DNA of 45,044 nucleotides. It comes from Phycisphaerales bacterium (GTDB taxonomy: Bacteria > Planctomycetota > Phycisphaerae > Phycisphaerales > SM1A02). The notes beneath the pieces were generated by a model that saw only the letters and a list, made by a program, of their open reading frames with translations, had not been told where the DNA came from and searched no databases. The number at the start of each line of letters is the position of its first letter. The stretch's first letter is position 1. The stretch lies in NCBI GenBank assembly GCA_020345805.1, contig CP070772.1:3547703-3592746 (forward strand), written 5' to 3'. Shown here piece by piece: positions 8,370 through 41,202 of the stretch. The position numbers and the translations under genes are program-made.

Positions 8370-9800
8370 ATGAGCGATTCGTACGACTCTGAGCTGATAC
8401 CGGTACCTGAGCCGGTCAATATGTCGGGACCCGGTAGCGGCAAAGACGGAGCCTCCGGAGAGACCGGCGGCGGCGGTTTTAACGGCGGCGGAGGAGGAGG
8501 CCCCGGCGGAAGCGGGGGCAGTGACGGCGGCGATGGGGGATTCCGAGGTCGCCGCATCACCACCTGCTCTTTCTGCGGCAAGACCTCCCGCGAGGTCGGG
8601 CCCATGGTCGAGGGGCCCAACGATATCTACATCTGCTCAAACTGCACCGACCTCTGTCAGAACATCTTCCGCCAGGAGCGGAGGCGCGTGGCCAGCGCCC
8701 GGCCGCTGTTCTCCGCCATCCCCGCCCCGCGGGAGATCCGGGAGTTTCTTGATCAGTACGTGATCGGTCAGGATCACGCCAAGAAGGCGCTCTCCGTCGC
8801 CGTGCACAACCACTACAAGCGCCTCAGCCAGATCGAAAACGAGGACAACTCCGTCGAGCTGGACAAGTCCAACGTCCTGCTTCTCGGACCTACCGGAACC
8901 GGCAAGACGCTTCTGGCCAAGACCCTGGCCCGCGTGCTCAACGTGCCCTTCGCCATCGGTGACGCCACCACGCTCACCGAGGCCGGCTACGTGGGCGAAG
9001 ACGTCGAGAACCTCCTGCTCAAGCTCCTGCAGGCCGCCGACTACGACCTGGAGGGAGCGCAGCGCGGCATCATCTACATTGACGAGATCGACAAAATCGG
9101 CAAGACCACGCAGAACGTCTCCATCACCCGCGATGTCTCCGGCGAGGGCGTTCAGCAGTCGCTGCTCAAGATGCTGGAAGGTGCCGTGGCCAACGTTCCC
9201 CCCCAGGGCGGGCGCAAGCACCCCGAGCAGCAGTACATCCAGATGGACACCAGCCACATCCTGTTCATCTGCGGCGGGTCGTTCGCCGGACTCGAAGACA
9301 TCATCCGCCGGCGCCTCGGCCGGCAGCGCATCGGCTTCACCACCAAGCCCACGGGAGTGGAAACCGAGGAGAAGGAGACCGCCCAGATTCTCGAGCAGGT
9401 CACTCCGGAGGACATCCTCCAGTTCGGCCTGATCCCCGAGCTGGTGGGCCGGCTGCCCATCATCACCCCGCTCATGCCCCTGGCCCGCGAGGCGATGGTG
9501 CAGATCCTCACCGAGCCCAAGAACGCCGTCATCAAACAGTACCAGCGTCTCTTCTCCCTGGAGAGCGCCACGCTGGAGTTCACCGACGACGCCCTGGAAG
9601 AGTTCGCGGACATGGCCATGGCGCGCAAGACCGGGGCCCGTGCCCTGAGGGCCGTCCTCGATGAGTTCATGCTCGACATGATGTACGAGCTGCCGGACCT
9701 GGACTGCAGGGGCGTGACCTATGTCATCGACGCCGATGCCGTGAAGAACAAGGCCTCACTGGCCGAGCTGCCCCAGCGGAAGGCCAAGGAATCCGCCTGA
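8370..9800 (+). CDS. clpX: ATP-dependent Clp protease ATPase subunit ClpX
   Basis: A 476-residue AAA+ unfoldase that feeds substrates to ClpP. The N-terminal zinc domain has Cys66, Cys69, Cys89 and Cys92. Walker A is G-P-T-G-T-G-K-T (173-180), pore loop 1 is G-Y-V-G (206-209), Walker B is I-Y-I-D-E-I-D with Asp238/Glu239, and the RKH loop (G-G-R-K-H-P) is intact. The ClpP-docking loop I-G-F (321-323) is present, so a ClpP partner should exist elsewhere in the genome. Ahead of the zinc domain is an unusual 60-residue Gly-rich segment (about residues 28-57) that most ClpX proteins lack. The ATG follows a plausible AGAGGCAG ribosome site. Confidence 0.97.
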
Positions 9801-31109: not shown

Positions 31110-32513
31110 TCACGGGCATGGGCCCCACCAGTTCAGGATGATGAACAGATCATCCACGTCAGCCACGCAATCCTCGTTCAGATCAGCCGGGCAGGATGGC
31201 GGACACGGATCCGGGCAGGGGCCCCAATTCCCGAGCAGGGCGAAGACATCGTCGATGTTCACTTTGCCGTCATCTGTCAGATCACCGGGGCAGGGCATGC
31301 CGGGCCGGCTTGCCACGGCGAGATAGGTGCGCCTCTTCCACGGTTCGTTGGTATCGTGCCCCGCGTTGTACGCCAGGACGTACCGGTTGTATTCCTCGTC
31401 AACGGCGAGCGTCGGCGTGCGCTGGAAGCCGGTGGCCGGCACGCCGTTCTCGTGCTCGCCCGCCACGATGATCGGGTTGTCCGGGTGACCTATCCAGGTG
31501 TCGCCCCAGTCCGGCGACCAGTAGTAGGCAATCCGCCCGCCCTTGGGATAGTTCTGGTTGGAGACGGTGAGCACCATGTGAACGCCGTCGGCCCGCACGT
31601 CGCCCGTGCAATGCGCCTGCCAGGCGCCGCGGAAGCTGAAGCCGTCGGGGGGCGGAAGCGTCCACTGATAAGCGGGATTTTCCGGATCTGACGGATCCCA
31701 GGTGGGAATCTCGTTCTTCACGAAGTCGGTCTTGCCGTCGAGACTGTCGGCATAGGAGATTCGCCAGTTCCAGTAGGAGCCGACGGCCCCGTGCAACCCT
31801 CGATAGAAGAGTCGCACCATGCCGTTCTCACCGAGGTGTGGGACCCACACCGCGGTCGGCTCGGACAGCCCGCCCTTGATGACGCCGTTGTTGTTCCAGC
31901 CTTCCTCCCACCAGAGCTCTGCGATGAGCGTGTTCTCATACGTCTGCTCGAACGGAGTTCCGATGGCGGGAGGGTTCCAACTGGTCGCCACTTGAATCGC
32001 CCCCTCCCAACCCGGCAGTCCGACCCACTCGGGATGGTCATCCCTGGTTCCGGGGCGCACGGTGTTGTAGAGAAGGTGCTCGCCCGTCAGCGGGTGATGC
32101 AGGTAGCCGGGCGTGTCGGTGTGCTCCCAGGCGGGGCCGGGATTCGGGCCGCCCGGTTGGGCCAGCGGCGTGTACTTTATCTTGGTGACCGGATCGTATC
32201 CCAACGCCCAATCGTCCAGCACCTCCTCCTCATGGATACGCTCGGTCATGTAGGTTGCGTGATAGCTGTGATACAGCAGCTTGAGCAGCCCGTCCTGTAT
32301 GAAGATGAACTCCTCGCCCACGATGCCGCCCCAATCCCCGTAGAGGTGCGTCTGATACTCGGGATCGTCCGGATGGGGGGCGGTGATGTACCCGATGGGA
32401 ACGAAGTCGGGCCATTCGCCGAGCGGACCGTCCGAATCATCAACCGGCGCGGCCGTCGCCAGACCCAGAAAGCCTCCTGCCGCCACAACTGTCAGAAATA
32501 TGCCCCTGTCCAT
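31110..32513 (-). CDS. Secreted five-bladed-propeller-like protein with dockerin-like tail
   Basis: A 467-residue exported protein. ATG 32513 follows GGGAGCGTTCGAA. It has a signal peptide (F-L-T-V-V-A-A-G-G-F-L-G-L-A) and then a body rich in W-x-x-P and D-G/D-W motifs (I-S-Y-A-D-S-L-D-G-K-T-D-F, A-Y-Y-W-S-P-D-W-G-D-T-W-I-G), reminiscent of GH43/sialidase-type propellers; the S-x-D-x-G-x-T-W box near 345 resembles an Asp-box. No catalytic set can be assigned. The C-terminus has G-D-L-T-D-D-G-K-V-N-I-D-D-V-F and A-D-L-N-E-D-C-V-A-D-V-D-D-L-F, a variant of the island's dockerin pair in which the second loop has Cys for Gly. It is the eighth dockerin-tailed protein, separated from the others by about 6 kb. 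Confidence 0.82.
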   Translation of the reverse strand: MDRGIFLTVVAAGGFLGLATAAPVDDSDGPLGEWPDFVPIGYITAPHPDDPEYQTHLYGDWGGIVGEEFIFIQDGLLKLLYHSYHATYMTERIHEEEVLDDWALGYDPVTKIKYTPLAQPGGPNPGPAWEHTDTPGYLHHPLTGEHLLYNTVRPGTRDDHPEWVGLPGWEGAIQVATSWNPPAIGTPFEQTYENTLIAELWWEEGWNNNGVIKGGLSEPTAVWVPHLGENGMVRLFYRGLHGAVGSYWNWRISYADSLDGKTDFVKNEIPTWDPSDPENPAYQWTLPPPDGFSFRGAWQAHCTGDVRADGVHMVLTVSNQNYPKGGRIAYYWSPDWGDTWIGHPDNPIIVAGEHENGVPATGFQRTPTLAVDEEYNRYVLAYNAGHDTNEPWKRRTYLAVASRPGMPCPGDLTDDGKVNIDDVFALLGNWGPCPDPCPPSCPADLNEDCVADVDDLFIILNWWGPCP

Positions 32514-33988: not shown

Positions 33989-35122
33989 ATGATCCGCTAT
34001 ATGGCCTATCGCCCCCAGACCAGCCATCAGCGCTATGAGCAGTACAAGCGCGACCTGAAAGCCCACCGCACGGAGGGGACCCGCCGCACCGCCGCAGCAC
34101 ATGCCAAGGCCAAGCCGCGGGAGCGGCAGCGGTCGTTTCTCCAGCTTTTCGCCGCTTTCATCGGTCTCATTCGCGGTCATCGCCGGGCGGTGGCTCTCTC
34201 GCTGGCCACCGTAACCGTCGCCTCCGGGCTGAGGCTCTTCCCGCCGGCCGCGACCGGATTCGTGCTGGACTACGTCCTGGTCCCGGGCGAGAGGCCGCCG
34301 CCCGTGGCCTTGGCCGATCTGCTCGGACCCACACCCGACCGGCGTGTCCTGCTGGCCGTGGTCGCCGTCAGCCTGGTGGTGGCCGCGGTGCTCTCCATCG
34401 GCATCGGAACCTGGGGGCGATACATCAACACCATCACCACCAAGCGGGTGCAGTCGCGGGTTCGCAAGCGGGTCTTCGAGCACGCGGTCCGGCTCCCCCT
34501 GCACCGCGTCTATCAGCTCAAGTCCGGCGGGGTGGCGAGCATTCTGCGCGAGGACGCCGGGGCGGTGGCGGAGCTGCTCTTCAGCATGCTCTACAACCCC
34601 TGGCGGGCGGTGATCCAACTACTCGGCACTCTCGTCATTCTCGCGGTCATCGACTGGCGGCTTCTGGTGGGATCGCTGGTGATTATTCCCGTGGCGTATC
34701 TGACCCATCATGCGTGGATCTCGCGCATCCGGCCTTTGTGGCGGGACATCCGCGCGGCCCGGCAACAGGTGGACAGCCACGCCACGGAAGCGTTCGGGGG
34801 GATGCGGGTGGTGCGCGGTTTCGGACGGCAGCGCACCGAGGCCGGCCGCTTCATTCGCAACAGCCATCTCATGATCCGCCAGGAATTGCTGGCCTGGTGC
34901 TGGTCGCGGACGATCGACTTGGCCTGGTCGGTCCTGCTTCCGCTCGCTTCGGCAGTGCTGCTGTGGTACGGCGGGGGACGGATCCTGCAGGACGCCGCGG
35001 CGGTCACGGCGGGCGAGATGACCGCCCAACAGGCGCTGACGGTCGGCGACCTCGTGATGTTCCTGTTCTATCTCGCCCTGCTGCTGGAGCCGCTGGCCAC
35101 CCTGGCCATGAGCACCACCTAA
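33989..35122 (+). CDS. ABC exporter permease half, ended by an in-frame TAA
   Basis: 377 codons encoding the transmembrane part of an ABC-type exporter. After a basic N-terminus (about residues 1-50) come hydrophobic helices (A-L-S-L-A-T-V-T-V-A near 72, V-L-L-A-V-V-A-V-S-L-V-V-A near 121, L-L-G-T-L-V-I-L-A-V-I near 211, V-L-L-P-L-A-S-A-V-L-L-W-Y near 315, L-V-M-F-L-F-Y-L-A-L-L near 353). The TAA at 35120-35122 cuts it just before the linker to the ATPase; the same frame continues straight into the nucleotide-binding domain at 35153. A CAA to TAA change would explain it. Start may be ATG 33989 or 34001; neither has a clear ribosome site. As read it lacks an ATPase. Confidence 0.8.
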   Translation: MIRYMAYRPQTSHQRYEQYKRDLKAHRTEGTRRTAAAHAKAKPRERQRSFLQLFAAFIGLIRGHRRAVALSLATVTVASGLRLFPPAATGFVLDYVLVPGERPPPVALADLLGPTPDRRVLLAVVAVSLVVAAVLSIGIGTWGRYINTITTKRVQSRVRKRVFEHAVRLPLHRVYQLKSGGVASILREDAGAVAELLFSMLYNPWRAVIQLLGTLVILAVIDWRLLVGSLVIIPVAYLTHHAWISRIRPLWRDIRAARQQVDSHATEAFGGMRVVRGFGRQRTEAGRFIRNSHLMIRQELLAWCWSRTIDLAWSVLLPLASAVLLWYGGGRILQDAAAVTAGEMTAQQALTVGDLVMFLFYLALLLEPLATLAMSTT

Positions 35123-35152
35123 TTTCAGAACAGCCTCGCCGGGCTCGACCGC

Positions 35153-36034
35153 GTGTTGGACCTGCTGGCGGAAAGGAAGGAGTTCGAGGAGACGCCGGGA
35201 AGGATCGTGATCCACCCCTCCCGCACGGAGGGCCGCGTTTCGTTGCACGATGTCAGCTTCACTTATCCGGGAACCTCCACGCCCGTGCTGGAGGGAATCT
35301 CGCTTCGGGCCGAGCCGGGCAAGACCATCGCCCTGGTCGGCCCCAGCGGGGCCGGGAAGACCACCCTGTGCAATCTCATCGCTCGCTTTCACGATCCCAC
35401 CGAAGGAGCGATCGAGCTGGACGGCATCGATCTGCGCGAGATCGACGTGCAGAGCTATCGGCAACTGCTGGGGGTAGTGGAGCAGGACATCTTCCTGTTC
35501 GACGGCACGATCGCCGAGAACATCGCCTACGGCCGGCGCGGGGCGACCCGCGAAGATCTGGTTCACGCCGCCCGCCTTGCCCACGCCTCTGAGTTCATCG
35601 ACCGGCTTGAGAAAGGTTACGACACGATAATCGGCGAGCGCGGCGTGCGCCTCAGCGGCGGCCAGCGCCAGCGGGTCGCGGTGGCCCGTGCACTTCTCGC
35701 CGACCCGCGCATACTCATCCTCGATGAGGCAACCAGCAATCTGGACACGGAAAGCGAACGGCTCATTCAGGCCAGTTTGCGCCGATTGCTGGTGGGGCGA
35801 ACGAGCTTCGTGATCGCCCACCGCCTCAGCACCATCACCGACGCCGACCTCATCATCGTCCTGGAGGATGGTCGTATCATCGAGCAGGGCACGCACGCGG
35901 AGCTGATTCGGGAAAGCGGCCGGTATCAGGAGATGGTGAGGATGCAGTTGTGCCCGACCGACTCACCATTGCCCGCACCTGAGATCACCACAGACGATGA
36001 AGACCCCCTGGAGCACGCTCGGCGGAACATATAG
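35153..36034 (+). CDS. ABC exporter nucleotide-binding half (same frame, downstream of the TAA)
   Basis: About 293 residues if read from GTG 35153. It contains the whole ATPase: Walker A G-P-S-G-A-G-K-T-T, Q-loop V-V-E-Q-D-I-F-L-F-D, signature L-S-G-G-Q-R-Q-R, Walker B I-L-I-L-D-E-A-T-S, D-loop N-L-D-T and H-loop A-H-R-L-S-T-I. All motifs are intact. There is no ribosome site ahead of the GTG and only 30 bases separate it from the TAA, so independent initiation is doubtful; it is most naturally the second half of the exporter gene 33989-36034, separated by one stop codon. It ends 57 bases before the convergent ABC-secretin gene. Confidence 0.8.
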   Translation: MLDLLAERKEFEETPGRIVIHPSRTEGRVSLHDVSFTYPGTSTPVLEGISLRAEPGKTIALVGPSGAGKTTLCNLIARFHDPTEGAIELDGIDLREIDVQSYRQLLGVVEQDIFLFDGTIAENIAYGRRGATREDLVHAARLAHASEFIDRLEKGYDTIIGERGVRLSGGQRQRVAVARALLADPRILILDEATSNLDTESERLIQASLRRLLVGRTSFVIAHRLSTITDADLIIVLEDGRIIEQGTHAELIRESGRYQEMVRMQLCPTDSPLPAPEITTDDEDPLEHARRNI

Positions 36035-36091: not shown

Positions 36092-38938
36092 TCAGATGGC
36101 CGGACCTTGCGGGTTTGCCGCGGGCTCGACGGCCGGCGGGGGTGTCTCCTGCATCGCGCCGTTGTCGTCGGTGGCGGAGGCCGGCATCATTTCCCGAAGC
36201 GTGGCGTCCAGCTCAGTCAGGCGATCCTCGATCTCCTGGACGGCGGCGGCGTAATAGTGCTCGGTGTGGAAGAAATATCGCGCCACGTCCGCGTCGATAA
36301 CGTGCGCCTGCTGCACCTTGATGTCGGGCATCAGCAGCACGCCGCCCACGGAAAAGTTGCGGAGCAGGAGCTGCGACTGGCCGCCGTTGAGGAGCACGAT
36401 GCGCTTCAGCGCGATGGCCCGGCGGAGGCGGATCATGTCACCGTCGCTGTGCAGGAGGATCGTGAAGCGCTGCCGGCCGTCCTCCAGCGGCTGGTTCATC
36501 TCCCACAGAAGCTCTCCCCAGGCCACGCGGTCCGGACAGTCGACAATCGTAAGTTCGGGAATCGGCTCGCTGGCCAGGCGATTCGGATCCATCGAGTCGC
36601 GATCGTAATGGAAGGTGATGGCCAGGGCCTTGCCCTTGTTGTTGTTGAAGAAGGCCTGGTACTTGATGCCGTGGCCGAGCTTGGCCATGGTGCGCTCGAG
36701 GAACTGCACGTCGTATCCGCCGACCTGCTGGCTCTCGAAGAAAATGAGGCGGTTGGGGCCGATCTTCCGGTCCACCTCGAGGCGCTTGACGACCTCGTAG
36801 ATCATGCGGGTGACCAGCATCTCCTCGCCGGGAATATGGTCGCCGGCGAAAGCGCTGAACGGCTCGGTCTCGGCCAGCCGGAAGTTGCGCTCGATGGCCT
36901 GCCGGGCCAGGTCCCGGTACGCGTTCAGGCGGCGGTTCTCCAGCAGGAAGGTCAGGTCATACACGTCCTCGGTGCGGATGCGGTAGGAATCGCGGAACAG
37001 CTCGTTGCCGAAGCTGTCGAAGGCATCCTCATCCTTGGGCAGCGAGCGGGCGATGTACTGATCTTCGGGCAGGACATAAGGGGTGAGAACGATGATAACT
37101 TCGCGTTTCGTCGTCTCGACCTTCTCGGCCCGGAAGAGGGCGCCCAGCAGAGGAATGTCGCCGAGCAAGGGGATCTTGTCCTGGGTGCTGGTGCGTTCGC
37201 GGCTGACCAGGCCGCCCACGATGAACGGCGTGTTGTTACGGATGCGGGCATAGGTCTGCACGCGGCGGGTGCTGACGGTGGGGGCGGTAGCAACGATGTC
37301 CCCCTGGTTGTCCCGCAATTCCAGGGCCGCTCCCGCCACTTCGGCGGAAACGACCGTGTCGATCAGCATGCTCACCTCGCTGCCTTCTTCGTTGATGCGC
37401 GGCCGGATGTTCAGAAGGATGCCGGTGGGGAGGTACTGGAAATTAAACACAATACGGTTGGACCCCAACGTGCCCTCGGTGCTGGTGGCGATGGGTATGT
37501 CCGTGCCGACGCGGATCGTCGATTGACGATTGTTGAGCGTGAGTATGCTCGGACGGGCCAGGATCTCCGCCTTGCCGTCACGGATCAGGGCCCGGATGCG
37601 CCCGGTCCAGGGCGGCTGGAAGTCCCGGGTGAACACCCGCCAGAAGTCCAGGTCGGTGCTCTCGAAGAAGAGCGTGTCTTCGACGCCCCCGGCCTCGGAG
37701 GAACCGGCGCGGAAAGTGATGGGCCCGGACTGCAATTCCCACTCGATTCCCAGATCCTTCAGCCCGTCCTCGCTGATCTCCAGGACCATCCCCTCGATGA
37801 AGATCTGCCGGGCCGGTCGATCGATATAATCATCGAGCAGCTTCCGCACCCGGCTGAACTGCTCCGGATGAGCCGGGTGAAACATCACCAGCAGTTGGCT
37901 CATGGGCGAGGCGATGGTGTTTTCGGGCAGGGCAGCGGCCACGCTCGGCGTGAGCGAGAGTCCGAACGTTCCCCCTGCAGCCGTTCCCTGCCCGATCAGG
38001 CCGGCCTCTTCCTTTTTCGGATCCGGCAACTTCACCGCCAGTGGAAGCTGGGCGAAGTCCACGGCCTGGGGGACGGCATTGGCGTCGCTGATCGTAGTCA
38101 CCCCCAGGCTCTTCAACGCCGCCAGGGCGTTGGTGGCATCGGTGTAGCTCAGTTGAATGAGCTTTGATTCCAGGTCCCGCGGGGTCAGGCCGGCCCGCAT
38201 CTCGTTCAGCGATGCCACCAGCGGCTGAAGCGCCGCGCCGACCGCATCCAGATCGGCGTTCGCGGCCACGTTTTCACCGGCGATCGTCAGACCCTGCAAC
38301 CAGAGCTGCGGCGGCTGCGACAGGTAGGAGCGATATCCGAAGCGCAGGATTGACCTGCCCGACTCATCGCTGCGCCAGATCACCCGCAGGGGCACCACCC
38401 CGCGCGGCGGAGGGGGAAGAGTGTCGGCCAGCGCCACCCCCCCATGGACATAGCCGTTCTCCGCACCCAGCTTCAACACCAGCCGATCGATCAGCTCAGT
38501 CAGCTCGGTGTCGCTGAGCTTGGGCAGGTCGAGCAGGCGTGAGGAGTTGGGGGGACTGTGGGTAATCGCGTACTCGCCGACGACATCCAGCACAGGCGGT
38601 GCCTCAGCAGCCACCGGCTCCTGCTCGGCGCTTGGCGCCGGCGCTTCCTCCGACTGCACCGGGACACCGGGCAGCGACCCGGCGGGCGGCTCGAGGGTAA
38701 GAGCATCCAGCGCCTCGGCCAGTTGAACAAGACGATCCGGATCCTCCTCCTCCAGAAACACTCCCTGGCTGATGCGGGGATCTTCCAGCTCCAGGGAATG
38801 TTCGACCCTGCTGGAACGGAGGCAGCCGCCGAGCAAGAGCAGGGAGCAGGCGAGAACGGCCAATCCGGTCGCCCTGCTTACCCGCGACTTGGATTCTGCA
38901 TCTTCGGCGGGCTTGAACTCCGTCGAGGAGGCGGGCAT
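36092..38938 (-). other. Secretin module of the ABC-secretin frame, with possible internal start
   Basis: If translated on its own from ATG 38938 it would be a 948-residue outer-membrane secretin lipoprotein: 35-residue leader with R-A-T-G-L-A-V-L-A-C-S-L-L-L-L-G-G-C, a Pro/Glu-rich linker (E-E-A-P-A-P-S-A-E-Q-E-P), N-type periplasmic domains (about 200-400), the secretin pore, and a C-terminal part ending in A-A-A-V-Q-E-I-E-D-R-L-T-E-L. Secretins form multimeric pores of type II/IV systems. An AGGCGA seven bases before the ATG is only a weak ribosome site. Confidence 0.6.
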
Positions 38939-40849
38939 TCGGTCGCCTGCGGCCGAACCGGCAAGATCCGGATCGCCGACGAGCACTTCGCGCCGGGGGC
39001 TGTCGCGCCGGCTCAAAGGCGAACTGCTGGAGGTCATCAGCCCCGTGAACTGCTCCGGCGGGCCGTCATAAGCGAGCCGGCCGGCCTCGATGGAAATCAC
39101 CCGGTCGGCAAATCCGAGCAACTCGGCATCGTGAGTAACCATGATGATTGTCCGTCCTTCCATCATCTCGAGGATCTTGTTGATGATCTCGTACGCCGCA
39201 CCGGCGTCGATGGAGGCCGTGGCTTCATCAAGGATCAGTATTCGTGGGTCCTTGATCAGGGCCCGGGCGAGAGTGAGTCTTTGCTTCTCCCCTCGCGACA
39301 ATTCGCCCCCCGAGGCGCCAAGGCGGGTGTAGTAACCATCCGGAAGGCGTTCGATGAATTCGTGCGCCCCGGTGATCTTGCACGCTTCGACCACCTCCGC
39401 CAGGGTCGCCTCGGACCTGGCGTAGCGCAGGTTCTCCTCAACCGAAGCGTCGAAAAGGAAGACCTCCTGGAACACCACTCCGAAGAGGCCCCGCAGATCG
39501 GGCAGCGGTACCGAGGCCACGTGCCGATCGTCGATCAGCACCTTGCCCGAGGTGGGATCGTTGAATCTCGGCAGCAGGCTGATGAGCGTGCTCTTGCCCG
39601 AGCCGCTGGGGCCGGTGATGACCACCCGCTCACCGGGGTTGATCTCGAGATCGACGTGGTTCAGCACCCCCAGCCCGTCCTCGTAGGAGAAACAGACATC
39701 CTGGAATCGGAGCCGGCCCTGCAGCTCCGTCAGCTCGATCGTCGTCGCCCCGGACACCGTCAGTTCGTCCACCGGCTCCTGGAGCATCTCGAAGACGCGG
39801 TCCACGCTGGCCCCGGCCTTGGAGAGGTGCCCCAGCCCGCTGATGACCTCCAGCACCGCCGGGTAGAGCATCTTCACGTAGATGAAGAACATCAGGAACA
39901 CGCCCGGCTTCATCTGGCCCCGGCCCACTTCCCAGGCCCCGTAGCCCAGGAGGGCCACCGTGCCCAGCCCCACGAGAAGGTCGGCGGCAACCTTCTGGAT
40001 GAAGTGGTAGCGCTGGCTGCGGATCTGGCTCTGCCGGCTGGCGTCGATGGCTCGCCTGAACTCCAGTGATTCCCGCTCCTCGCCCGAGAAGCCCTTGACC
40101 ACCTCCGCCCCGAGGAATTTCTCGACCACGTTGCCGTGGGCGACCGCGAGGTTCTCCTGGGCCTCCGAGTGGCTGCGGCGGATCCGCACTCGGAATACCC
40201 GATACACCAGGAAGTGCAGCGGCAGCAGGAAGGTGCTCGCCAAGGCCAGGCGCCAGTTGACCACATACAGAATCACCACCAACACCTGGAACTCCAGCAG
40301 GTAGCGCAGGAACGTCGGCAGCTTCTCCTGAATGAACGTCTGAATCTTGAACGAATCGTCCATCAGCCGGGAGCTGATCTTCCCCGGCTGGTGGGAACGG
40401 TAGAACCTGAGGCTCAATTGCTGAAGGTGCTCGAACAGCCGTTTGCGCAGATTGAAGCAGAGGTCCTCGCTGACCCCCAGCGAAACCATGCGGCTGGAAT
40501 AGAACAGGGCGTTGCGGGCGACATAGATCACCCCCAGACCGGGCAGGATCAGCCAGAGCAGGCCCCAGTTCCCGCCGCCGCCGGCCGTCTCACCGGCCGC
40601 GACCTCCCCCGGGTTCGAGGCGCCCGGGTCGGCCCCGTCGGCCGGGGAAGTCGCCTCGATCGCGGCGCTCGTGGCCGGCATGAACACGTCGTCGATGAGC
40701 AACTTCAGGGCGAACGGCTGAGCCATGTCCACCAGGGTCAGCAGGCACAGCAGCATGAGCGTCAAGGCTAGACGGAGGGTGTATGGGCGAAGGAGCCGGG
40801 CGAACCGAACCCCGGGCGACTCGCGCTGCATGACTGGCTGCTGGCTCAT
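36092..40849 (-). CDS. ABC exporter fused in frame to a lipoprotein-type secretin
   Basis: A single frame of 1585 codons from ATG 40849. Residues about 1-600 are a complete ABC exporter: TM helices (L-T-L-M-L-L-C-L-L-T-L-V near 25, L-W-L-I-L-P-G-L-G-V-I near 98, V-L-V-V-I-L-Y-V-V-N near 195), Walker A G-P-S-G-S-G-K-S-T near 413, a signature written L-S-R-G-E-K-Q-R near 516, Walker B I-L-I-L-D-E-A-T-A. With no stop, a linker leads to a lipoprotein signal-like segment ending L-L-L-L-G-G-C (Cys676) and then a secretin: R-P-A-R-Q-I-F-I-E-G-M-V-L, A-R-P-S-I-L-T-L-N-N, I-P-L-L-G-D-I-P-L-L-G-A-L-F-R near 1226-1240, plus a 230-residue C-terminal extension. Either a real fusion or two genes where the secretin starts inside (ATG 38938 or 39037, both with weak ribosome sites). 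ATG 41185 is rejected because it lies at the promoter. Confidence 0.8.
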   Translation of the reverse strand: MSQQPVMQRESPGVRFARLLRPYTLRLALTLMLLCLLTLVDMAQPFALKLLIDDVFMPATSAAIEATSPADGADPGASNPGEVAAGETAGGGGNWGLLWLILPGLGVIYVARNALFYSSRMVSLGVSEDLCFNLRKRLFEHLQQLSLRFYRSHQPGKISSRLMDDSFKIQTFIQEKLPTFLRYLLEFQVLVVILYVVNWRLALASTFLLPLHFLVYRVFRVRIRRSHSEAQENLAVAHGNVVEKFLGAEVVKGFSGEERESLEFRRAIDASRQSQIRSQRYHFIQKVAADLLVGLGTVALLGYGAWEVGRGQMKPGVFLMFFIYVKMLYPAVLEVISGLGHLSKAGASVDRVFEMLQEPVDELTVSGATTIELTELQGRLRFQDVCFSYEDGLGVLNHVDLEINPGERVVITGPSGSGKSTLISLLPRFNDPTSGKVLIDDRHVASVPLPDLRGLFGVVFQEVFLFDASVEENLRYARSEATLAEVVEACKITGAHEFIERLPDGYYTRLGASGGELSRGEKQRLTLARALIKDPRILILDEATASIDAGAAYEIINKILEMMEGRTIIMVTHDAELLGFADRVISIEAGRLAYDGPPEQFTGLMTSSSSPLSRRDSPRREVLVGDPDLAGSAAGDRMPASSTEFKPAEDAESKSRVSRATGLAVLACSLLLLGGCLRSSRVEHSLELEDPRISQGVFLEEEDPDRLVQLAEALDALTLEPPAGSLPGVPVQSEEAPAPSAEQEPVAAEAPPVLDVVGEYAITHSPPNSSRLLDLPKLSDTELTELIDRLVLKLGAENGYVHGGVALADTLPPPPRGVVPLRVIWRSDESGRSILRFGYRSYLSQPPQLWLQGLTIAGENVAANADLDAVGAALQPLVASLNEMRAGLTPRDLESKLIQLSYTDATNALAALKSLGVTTISDANAVPQAVDFAQLPLAVKLPDPKKEEAGLIGQGTAAGGTFGLSLTPSVAAALPENTIASPMSQLLVMFHPAHPEQFSRVRKLLDDYIDRPARQIFIEGMVLEISEDGLKDLGIEWELQSGPITFRAGSSEAGGVEDTLFFESTDLDFWRVFTRDFQPPWTGRIRALIRDGKAEILARPSILTLNNRQSTIRVGTDIPIATSTEGTLGSNRIVFNFQYLPTGILLNIRPRINEEGSEVSMLIDTVVSAEVAGAALELRDNQGDIVATAPTVSTRRVQTYARIRNNTPFIVGGLVSRERTSTQDKIPLLGDIPLLGALFRAEKVETTKREVIIVLTPYVLPEDQYIARSLPKDEDAFDSFGNELFRDSYRIRTEDVYDLTFLLENRRLNAYRDLARQAIERNFRLAETEPFSAFAGDHIPGEEMLVTRMIYEVVKRLEVDRKIGPNRLIFFESQQVGGYDVQFLERTMAKLGHGIKYQAFFNNNKGKALAITFHYDRDSMDPNRLASEPIPELTIVDCPDRVAWGELLWEMNQPLEDGRQRFTILLHSDGDMIRLRRAIALKRIVLLNGGQSQLLLRNFSVGGVLLMPDIKVQQAHVIDADVARYFFHTEHYYAAAVQEIEDRLTELDATLREMMPASATDDNGAMQETPPPAVEPAANPQGPAI

Positions 40850-41174
40850 CTTACCTGTTCGCACCTTCCCCGCTCCGCCGCCGGTACTGCCCGACCCGCC
40901 GCTTCGTATCAATTGCGCCGAGACAGGCACCTCCTCCTCGGCAGCCGGCCGGAACCACGTACCATGGTATCGTGCGGGGTTCTGACAATCATCGGCATGG
41001 CGGATCTGTTCCGTCCAGGTTCCGCCGACCGCCTCCAGCCCCCTCTTACCCTCAGGCCAGCCATCCGTTCCACGAACCGGCCGAAGGAAGCCGACCCCCG
41101 GCAGTGCCCGGCATTCCCCGGCAACCGGCTCAGATACCTTCAAAGGCCCTCGAGCGAGGGAGAATCCAACCGCC

Positions 41175-41202
41175 AGAATAGCCATAACATACTGATAGTT
41201 AA
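41175..41202 (-). promoter_or_regulatory. Candidate promoter for the ABC-secretin gene
   Basis: On the minus strand TTAACT and TATTCT are separated by 16 bases in the only AT-rich spot of this region. The start site near 41168 would give a leader of about 320 bases to ATG 40849, and would exclude the frame's earlier ATG at 41185. Confidence 0.45.

Follow-up and report, generated by a model that had tools for sequence, protein, structure and literature searches.

Secretins, which assemble into rings of about 12-15 subunits, are known from pili, type II and type III secretion and phages, and ABC half-transporters dimerise. A single bacterial gene for two membrane proteins is known from FbcH of Bradyrhizobium, a cytochrome b/c1 polyprotein whose internal signal is cut after translation. 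Type I secretion systems combine an ABC transporter with a membrane-fusion protein and a TolC-type factor (PMC4793230), and the accessible part of a review on tripartite exporters mentions no fusion between a secretin and an ABC protein (PMC8277102). We found no description of an ABC-secretin fusion or of Phycisphaerae secretins in the literature searched, mostly outside subscription papers. Such a fusion is encoded in the window analyzed here, a stretch of 45,044 nucleotides from a Phycisphaerales bacterium (contig CP070772.1) whose genome is a single MAG assembled into one contig (3.94 Mb, 80% complete).

A frame free of stops covers positions 36092-41185 of the minus strand, and its probable start, the ATG at 40849, leaves 1,585 codons followed by a stop codon, according to the open reading frames of the window (Table 1). 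A sequence-only reading of this DNA had located an exporter and a lipoprotein secretin within this one frame, and both its coordinates and its assignment agree with the Pfam matches and motifs. The encoded modules are, in order, an ABC exporter (residues 1-600), a linker of about 55 residues, an internal lipoprotein signal whose lipobox LGGC (residues 673-676) ends at Cys676, a secretin, and a C-terminal domain of about 280 residues. All three Pfam matches (ABC_membrane, ABC_tran and Secretin) lie well over their cut-offs.

Table 1. Features of the fused gene, in positions of the window.
Feature	Position	Strand	Evidence
Whole fused gene (1,585 codons and a stop), from the ABC exporter via linker, internal signal and secretin to the C-terminal domain	36092..40849	-	Frame shared by 42 genomes
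ABC transporter transmembrane domain, residues 29-326	39872..40765	-	Pfam PF00664, E 5e-36
ABC nucleotide-binding domain (NBD), residues 396-545	39215..39664	-	Pfam PF00005, E 4e-31
Walker A	39590-39613	-	Motif, within NBD
Signature LSRGEKQR	39278-39301	-	Motif, within NBD
Walker B	39221-39241	-	Motif, within NBD
H-loop	39128-39139	-	Motif, just beyond NBD match
Linker, hydrophilic, unconserved, residues 601-655; holds weak internal ATGs 39037 and 38938	38885..39049	-	No stop in 43 linkers, dN/dS, start-site energies
Internal lipoprotein signal: hydrophobic stretch and lipobox LGGC, Cys676 at 38822-38824	38822..38872	-	Clade conservation of Cys
Secretin periplasmic domains, about residues 770-1015	37805..38542	-	AlphaFold model of residues 676-1585
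Secretin pore domain, residues 1087-1260	37070..37591	-	Pfam PF00263, E 2e-40; fold match
Conserved C-terminal domain, about residues 1288-1565	36155..36988	-	Alignment and model, mean pLDDT 85

Two other genes of the window deserve mention. A second ABC exporter gene (33989-36034, plus strand) is convergent with the fused gene, and an in-frame TAA (35120-35122) separates its transmembrane and ATPase parts, which may reflect a broken gene, a sequence error or two polypeptides. Further away, 31110-32513 (minus strand) encodes a protein that looks secreted and carries dockerin-like repeats at its C-terminus, a type often met in Planctomycetota.

The exporter is an ABCB-type half transporter, with a transmembrane domain (TMD) and an NBD whose Walker A (GPSGSGKS, residues 413-420), signature (517-524), Walker B (ILILDEA, 537-543) and H-loop (VTHD, 571-574) are intact. 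Its best named models are MsbA-related, with P-glycoprotein also among the best named matches, yet it stays below the cut-off of every NCBIfam model among the matches listed, and with 314.5 bits against an equivalog cut-off of 602 it does not qualify as the MsbA lipid A flippase (TIGR02203). Relatives in the PDB are P-glycoprotein, Sav1866 and MsbA. The signature, which had been called unusual, was read correctly but is a trait of the family, most orthologues carrying LSRGEKQR, LSRGERQR or LSHGQKQR. The second half contains both the PF00263 domain and the secretin fold, and matches GspD, InvG and PilQ by sequence as well as by fold (Foldseek E to 1e-16; VIA Z 12.8); its score of 179 bits against the GspD equivalog model (cut-off 351) does not place it with the GspD of type II secretion. 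In the AlphaFold model of residues 676-1585, about 90 residues following Cys676 are predicted to be disordered, after which come the periplasmic domains, the pore domain and the C-terminal domain. The latter is conserved across Planctomycetota and Verrucomicrobiota and predicted with high confidence; it has no match in Pfam and none in the PDB by Foldseek at E<=0.001 (best VIA Z 3.6), which does not show a new fold. A giant secretin is also found in genome G000 (C1:1485820-1500243, or L188:1821-16244, minus strand), where an open frame of 4,808 residues holds 46 Secretin_N stretches followed by one Secretin domain, a stack that could form a very long periplasmic channel.

Homologues were searched in 100 relatives and then in 400 genomes of the order (Phycisphaerales-type Planctomycetota), 70 of which have the secretin. 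Having fetched the loci and tested the frame, we found ABC and secretin joined in a single open frame in 42 genomes, which represent 21 genera and 6 families of the order (13 of the 42 belong to one genus, and most genomes appear to be MAGs), as well as in one record labelled Verrucomicrobia (L046), which brings the fused linkers to 43. Seventeen genomes (genera g91, g107 and g83) have two adjacent genes instead, ABC first, and in G078 the adjacent pair is reversed, with the secretin first. The comparison of orthologues proposed beforehand thus gives a mixed picture, in which the stop is not lost in this genome only. G075 is counted as fused despite a frame break in the NBD of its ABC half, located at query residue 350 (L123, about 9261-9263 in reading orientation), which may be an assembly indel or mark a broken copy. 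G021, with two ABC copies, one of them cut by the contig end, and no secretin seen, was left out. Flags of one TGA or TAA in G063, G097, G265 and G373 turned out not to be breaks of the joint, both modules lying in one uninterrupted frame in each.

On the midpoint-rooted secretin tree, the fused state takes 6 changes against 20 in shuffles and the split state 2 against 15. Because most members of either deep branch of the order are fused on this tree, the fused state looks old within the order, and the two splits look secondary. The pair itself seems older than its fusion, because ABC and secretin are adjacent and separate genes in three genomes of another order of the same class (f105), and a relative of the ABC comes after the secretin in G670, from the same phylum. 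Pairwise distances of the ABC and of the secretin are correlated (r = 0.91; 0 of 999 permutations as high). The secretin also occurs without the ABC in g54, G187 and f115, and can therefore work without it.

Not one of the 1,854 codons in the 43 fused linkers is an in-frame stop. Base composition predicts 52.6, and the remaining two frames contain 111 between them. Between close relatives, dN/dS of the linker is about 0.03-0.55, a constraint weaker than that of the domains. The linker is therefore translated, and the translation through the joint as one chain, as first proposed, holds over the order. As there is no stop in the frame, every ABC chain runs on into the secretin; read from the sequence, the fused chain must be made. 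A missed stop or an assembly error, which had been raised as a possibility and which an origin in one 80% complete MAG could make plausible, can practically be dismissed: the same frame recurs in 42 genomes whose assemblies are separate and whose sequences have diverged, which rules out such an error as well as a stop lost in this genome alone. A different possibility is that the secretin is mainly made from a start within the linker (38938 or 39037), with the fused product as a by-product. Split relatives begin their secretin at the same place, and they provide a natural control for the start site, defined as an ATG 3-40 codons before the signal. All 17 have an ATG in this interval and 16 of them a ribosome-site energy <= -5 kcal/mol (median -6.4), whereas only 28 of the 43 fused sequences have any ATG there and 6 reach this energy (median -1.5; Mann-Whitney p 2e-8, for genomes that are related and so not independent). 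The fused genomes are at background level, 16% of in-frame ATGs anywhere in coding sequence reaching -5. Moreover, 5 of 22 fused genera have neither ATG nor GTG in the interval, neither ATG, GTG nor TTG occurs within 60 codons in G020 and G106, and no internal start consistent across fused genomes was found. The two candidates in our window score -3.4 (38938) and -5.8 kcal/mol (39037), in keeping with the earlier judgement that neither is a good site. Genus g19 (L124, L125, L136-L146) keeps a Met right before the signal, within a conserved MKHP motif 7-13 codons upstream and with mostly weak ribosome sites; this Met may be a relic, or may serve as a start independent of a ribosome site. Since without a stop all ABC chains would continue into the secretin anyway, we regard a main supply from internal initiation as improbable, and the comparison of split and fused ribosome sites disfavours an internal start as the sole source of secretin.

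At the joint, all 43 fused sequences have a hydrophobic stretch and, after it, a motif for processing. All 25 sequences of the window's clade place a Cys behind this internal stretch, and 23 of them show the lipobox pattern, while only 1 of 106 ABC transmembrane windows used as control matches this pattern. The sister clade has a site of signal-peptidase-I type in 18 of 18 sequences and a lipobox in none. Many of these sites are textbook-like (ALA-Q, AFA-Q, AWA-D); they are weaker evidence than the lipobox because control transmembrane windows match the loose pattern too, roughly a third to a half of them (26/85). All signals were judged by pattern match. Position +2 after the Cys is never Asp, which is consistent with sorting to the outer membrane, and the source genome encodes LspA. 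Two complete kinds of signal, one per clade, amount to a switch that is expected if cleavage is under selection, but not if the joint is a mere tether. The fused genes combine what a polyprotein calls for, one translated frame that lacks a consistent internal start and, at the level of motifs, a cleavable internal signal. Cleavage may be inefficient for a signal so deep inside a chain.

Around some 50 orthologous loci, no gene is conserved besides the ABC-secretin pair, and neither a membrane-fusion protein nor pseudopilins were found as conserved operon partners. The components expected next to a type II secretin (GspE/F, pseudopilins) are not among conserved neighbours of the orthologues, and the nearest T2SSE match among those listed for G000 lies about 65 kb from the fused gene. 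Likewise, no conserved membrane-fusion protein gene sits beside the ABC gene, as type I secretion would have it; OEP proteins are encoded elsewhere in the source genome, and the channel partner in the fusion is the secretin. Among Verrucomicrobiota, 8 of 8 relatives of the fused secretin (L048-L055) directly follow a gene for an MscS-type channel, and those placed in the tree nest inside Phycisphaerales sequences, so that the same pore appears paired with another inner-membrane transport protein. The MscS-family channel of L048 looks to carry a cyclic-nucleotide-binding-like region (named by eye). Gene context, from which we also infer that ABC and secretin are coupled in transport, suggests an inner-membrane exporter for which the secretin provides the way out through the outer membrane.

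Taken as a whole, the fused gene is probably that of a polyprotein, which would be cut into a dedicated ABC exporter and a secretin by signal peptidase II (or I). One precursor of about 170 kDa would be made, the ABC half inserting in the inner membrane, the linker staying cytoplasmic, and the internal signal inserting with its end outside. Cys676 would be lipidated and signal peptidase II would cut (signal peptidase I in the sister clade), releasing a lipoprotein secretin that would reach the outer membrane and form a ring pore. The ABC half would remain an inner-membrane exporter, most likely delivering its substrate to the periplasm, from where it would exit via the secretin. Joining would thereby give equal synthesis and co-targeting, the working parts being two proteins as in the split relatives. 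Against this pairing, there is no obvious benefit in making as much exporter as ring subunit, and the lineages named above lost the ABC and kept the secretin.

The sequence-only reading had instead pictured a permanent, uncut chain, in which an inner-membrane ATPase would be tethered to an outer-membrane pore as a one-protein conduit through both membranes. The frame is indeed kept over an order, the disordered residues after Cys676 could span the periplasm, and an internal signal can serve as an uncleaved anchor. Yet a lipobox Cys or a signal-peptidase-I-type site is kept in 43 of 43 sequences, 17 split relatives have the same two proteins, and each of the 12-15 subunits of a ring would have to carry a half-transporter, which is sterically odd, so we consider this conduit highly improbable. 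It is because a permanent 1:1 tether is awkward and the signal switches between clades that we favour a polyprotein cut by signal peptidase. Such a polyprotein might also supply a secretin to pili or a type II system, with an unrelated ABC and the joining as a mere expression device. GspE-type ATPases are encoded elsewhere in all 28 genomes checked, for which reason we dropped the absence of GspE from small fused genomes as an argument against a type II role, and some lineages have the secretin alone. However, the T2SS or pilus clusters in these genomes come with secretins of their own, lying within about 6-11 kb of GspE-type ATPases in G000, G018 and G186, where the fused secretin does not, and nothing but the ABC-secretin pair is conserved, even where it is split or reversed; service to pili or type II secretion is thus rather unlikely. 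More tentatively than the cleavage itself, we propose that the pair could be a dedicated two-membrane exporter, in which ABC and secretin replace the ABC-MFP-TolC arrangement, separated by signal peptidase or partly still joined.

If true, this would add an export route with a secretin at the service of an ABC exporter, and would give a clear example, of old origin, of a membrane polyprotein in bacteria that is processed at a lipoprotein signal within the chain. Because relatives occur in fused, split and reversed form, what the joining of two genes does can be tested directly. Compared with described systems, both the domains and the logic of processing are known, but we found no description of their combination. 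With MsbA and other ABCB exporters, the fused protein shares the TMD-NBD half-transporter layout, and differs by its LSRGEKQR signature and the attached secretin. It has the secretin domain and fold in common with GspD and PilQ of type II secretion and type IV pili, but carries in addition the C-terminal domain of about 280 residues, and no assembly ATPase, pseudopilin or platform protein is conserved near its gene. As in type I secretion, an ABC exporter would work with an outer-membrane channel; here, however, the channel is a secretin in one frame with the exporter, and no membrane-fusion protein is conserved at the locus. The closest likeness in processing is FbcH, also two membrane proteins from one gene with an internal signal before the second, yet FbcH yields respiratory proteins by a signal of the signal peptidase I type, whereas the fused gene encodes a transport pair with a lipoprotein signal, replaced by a signal peptidase I site in the sister clade.
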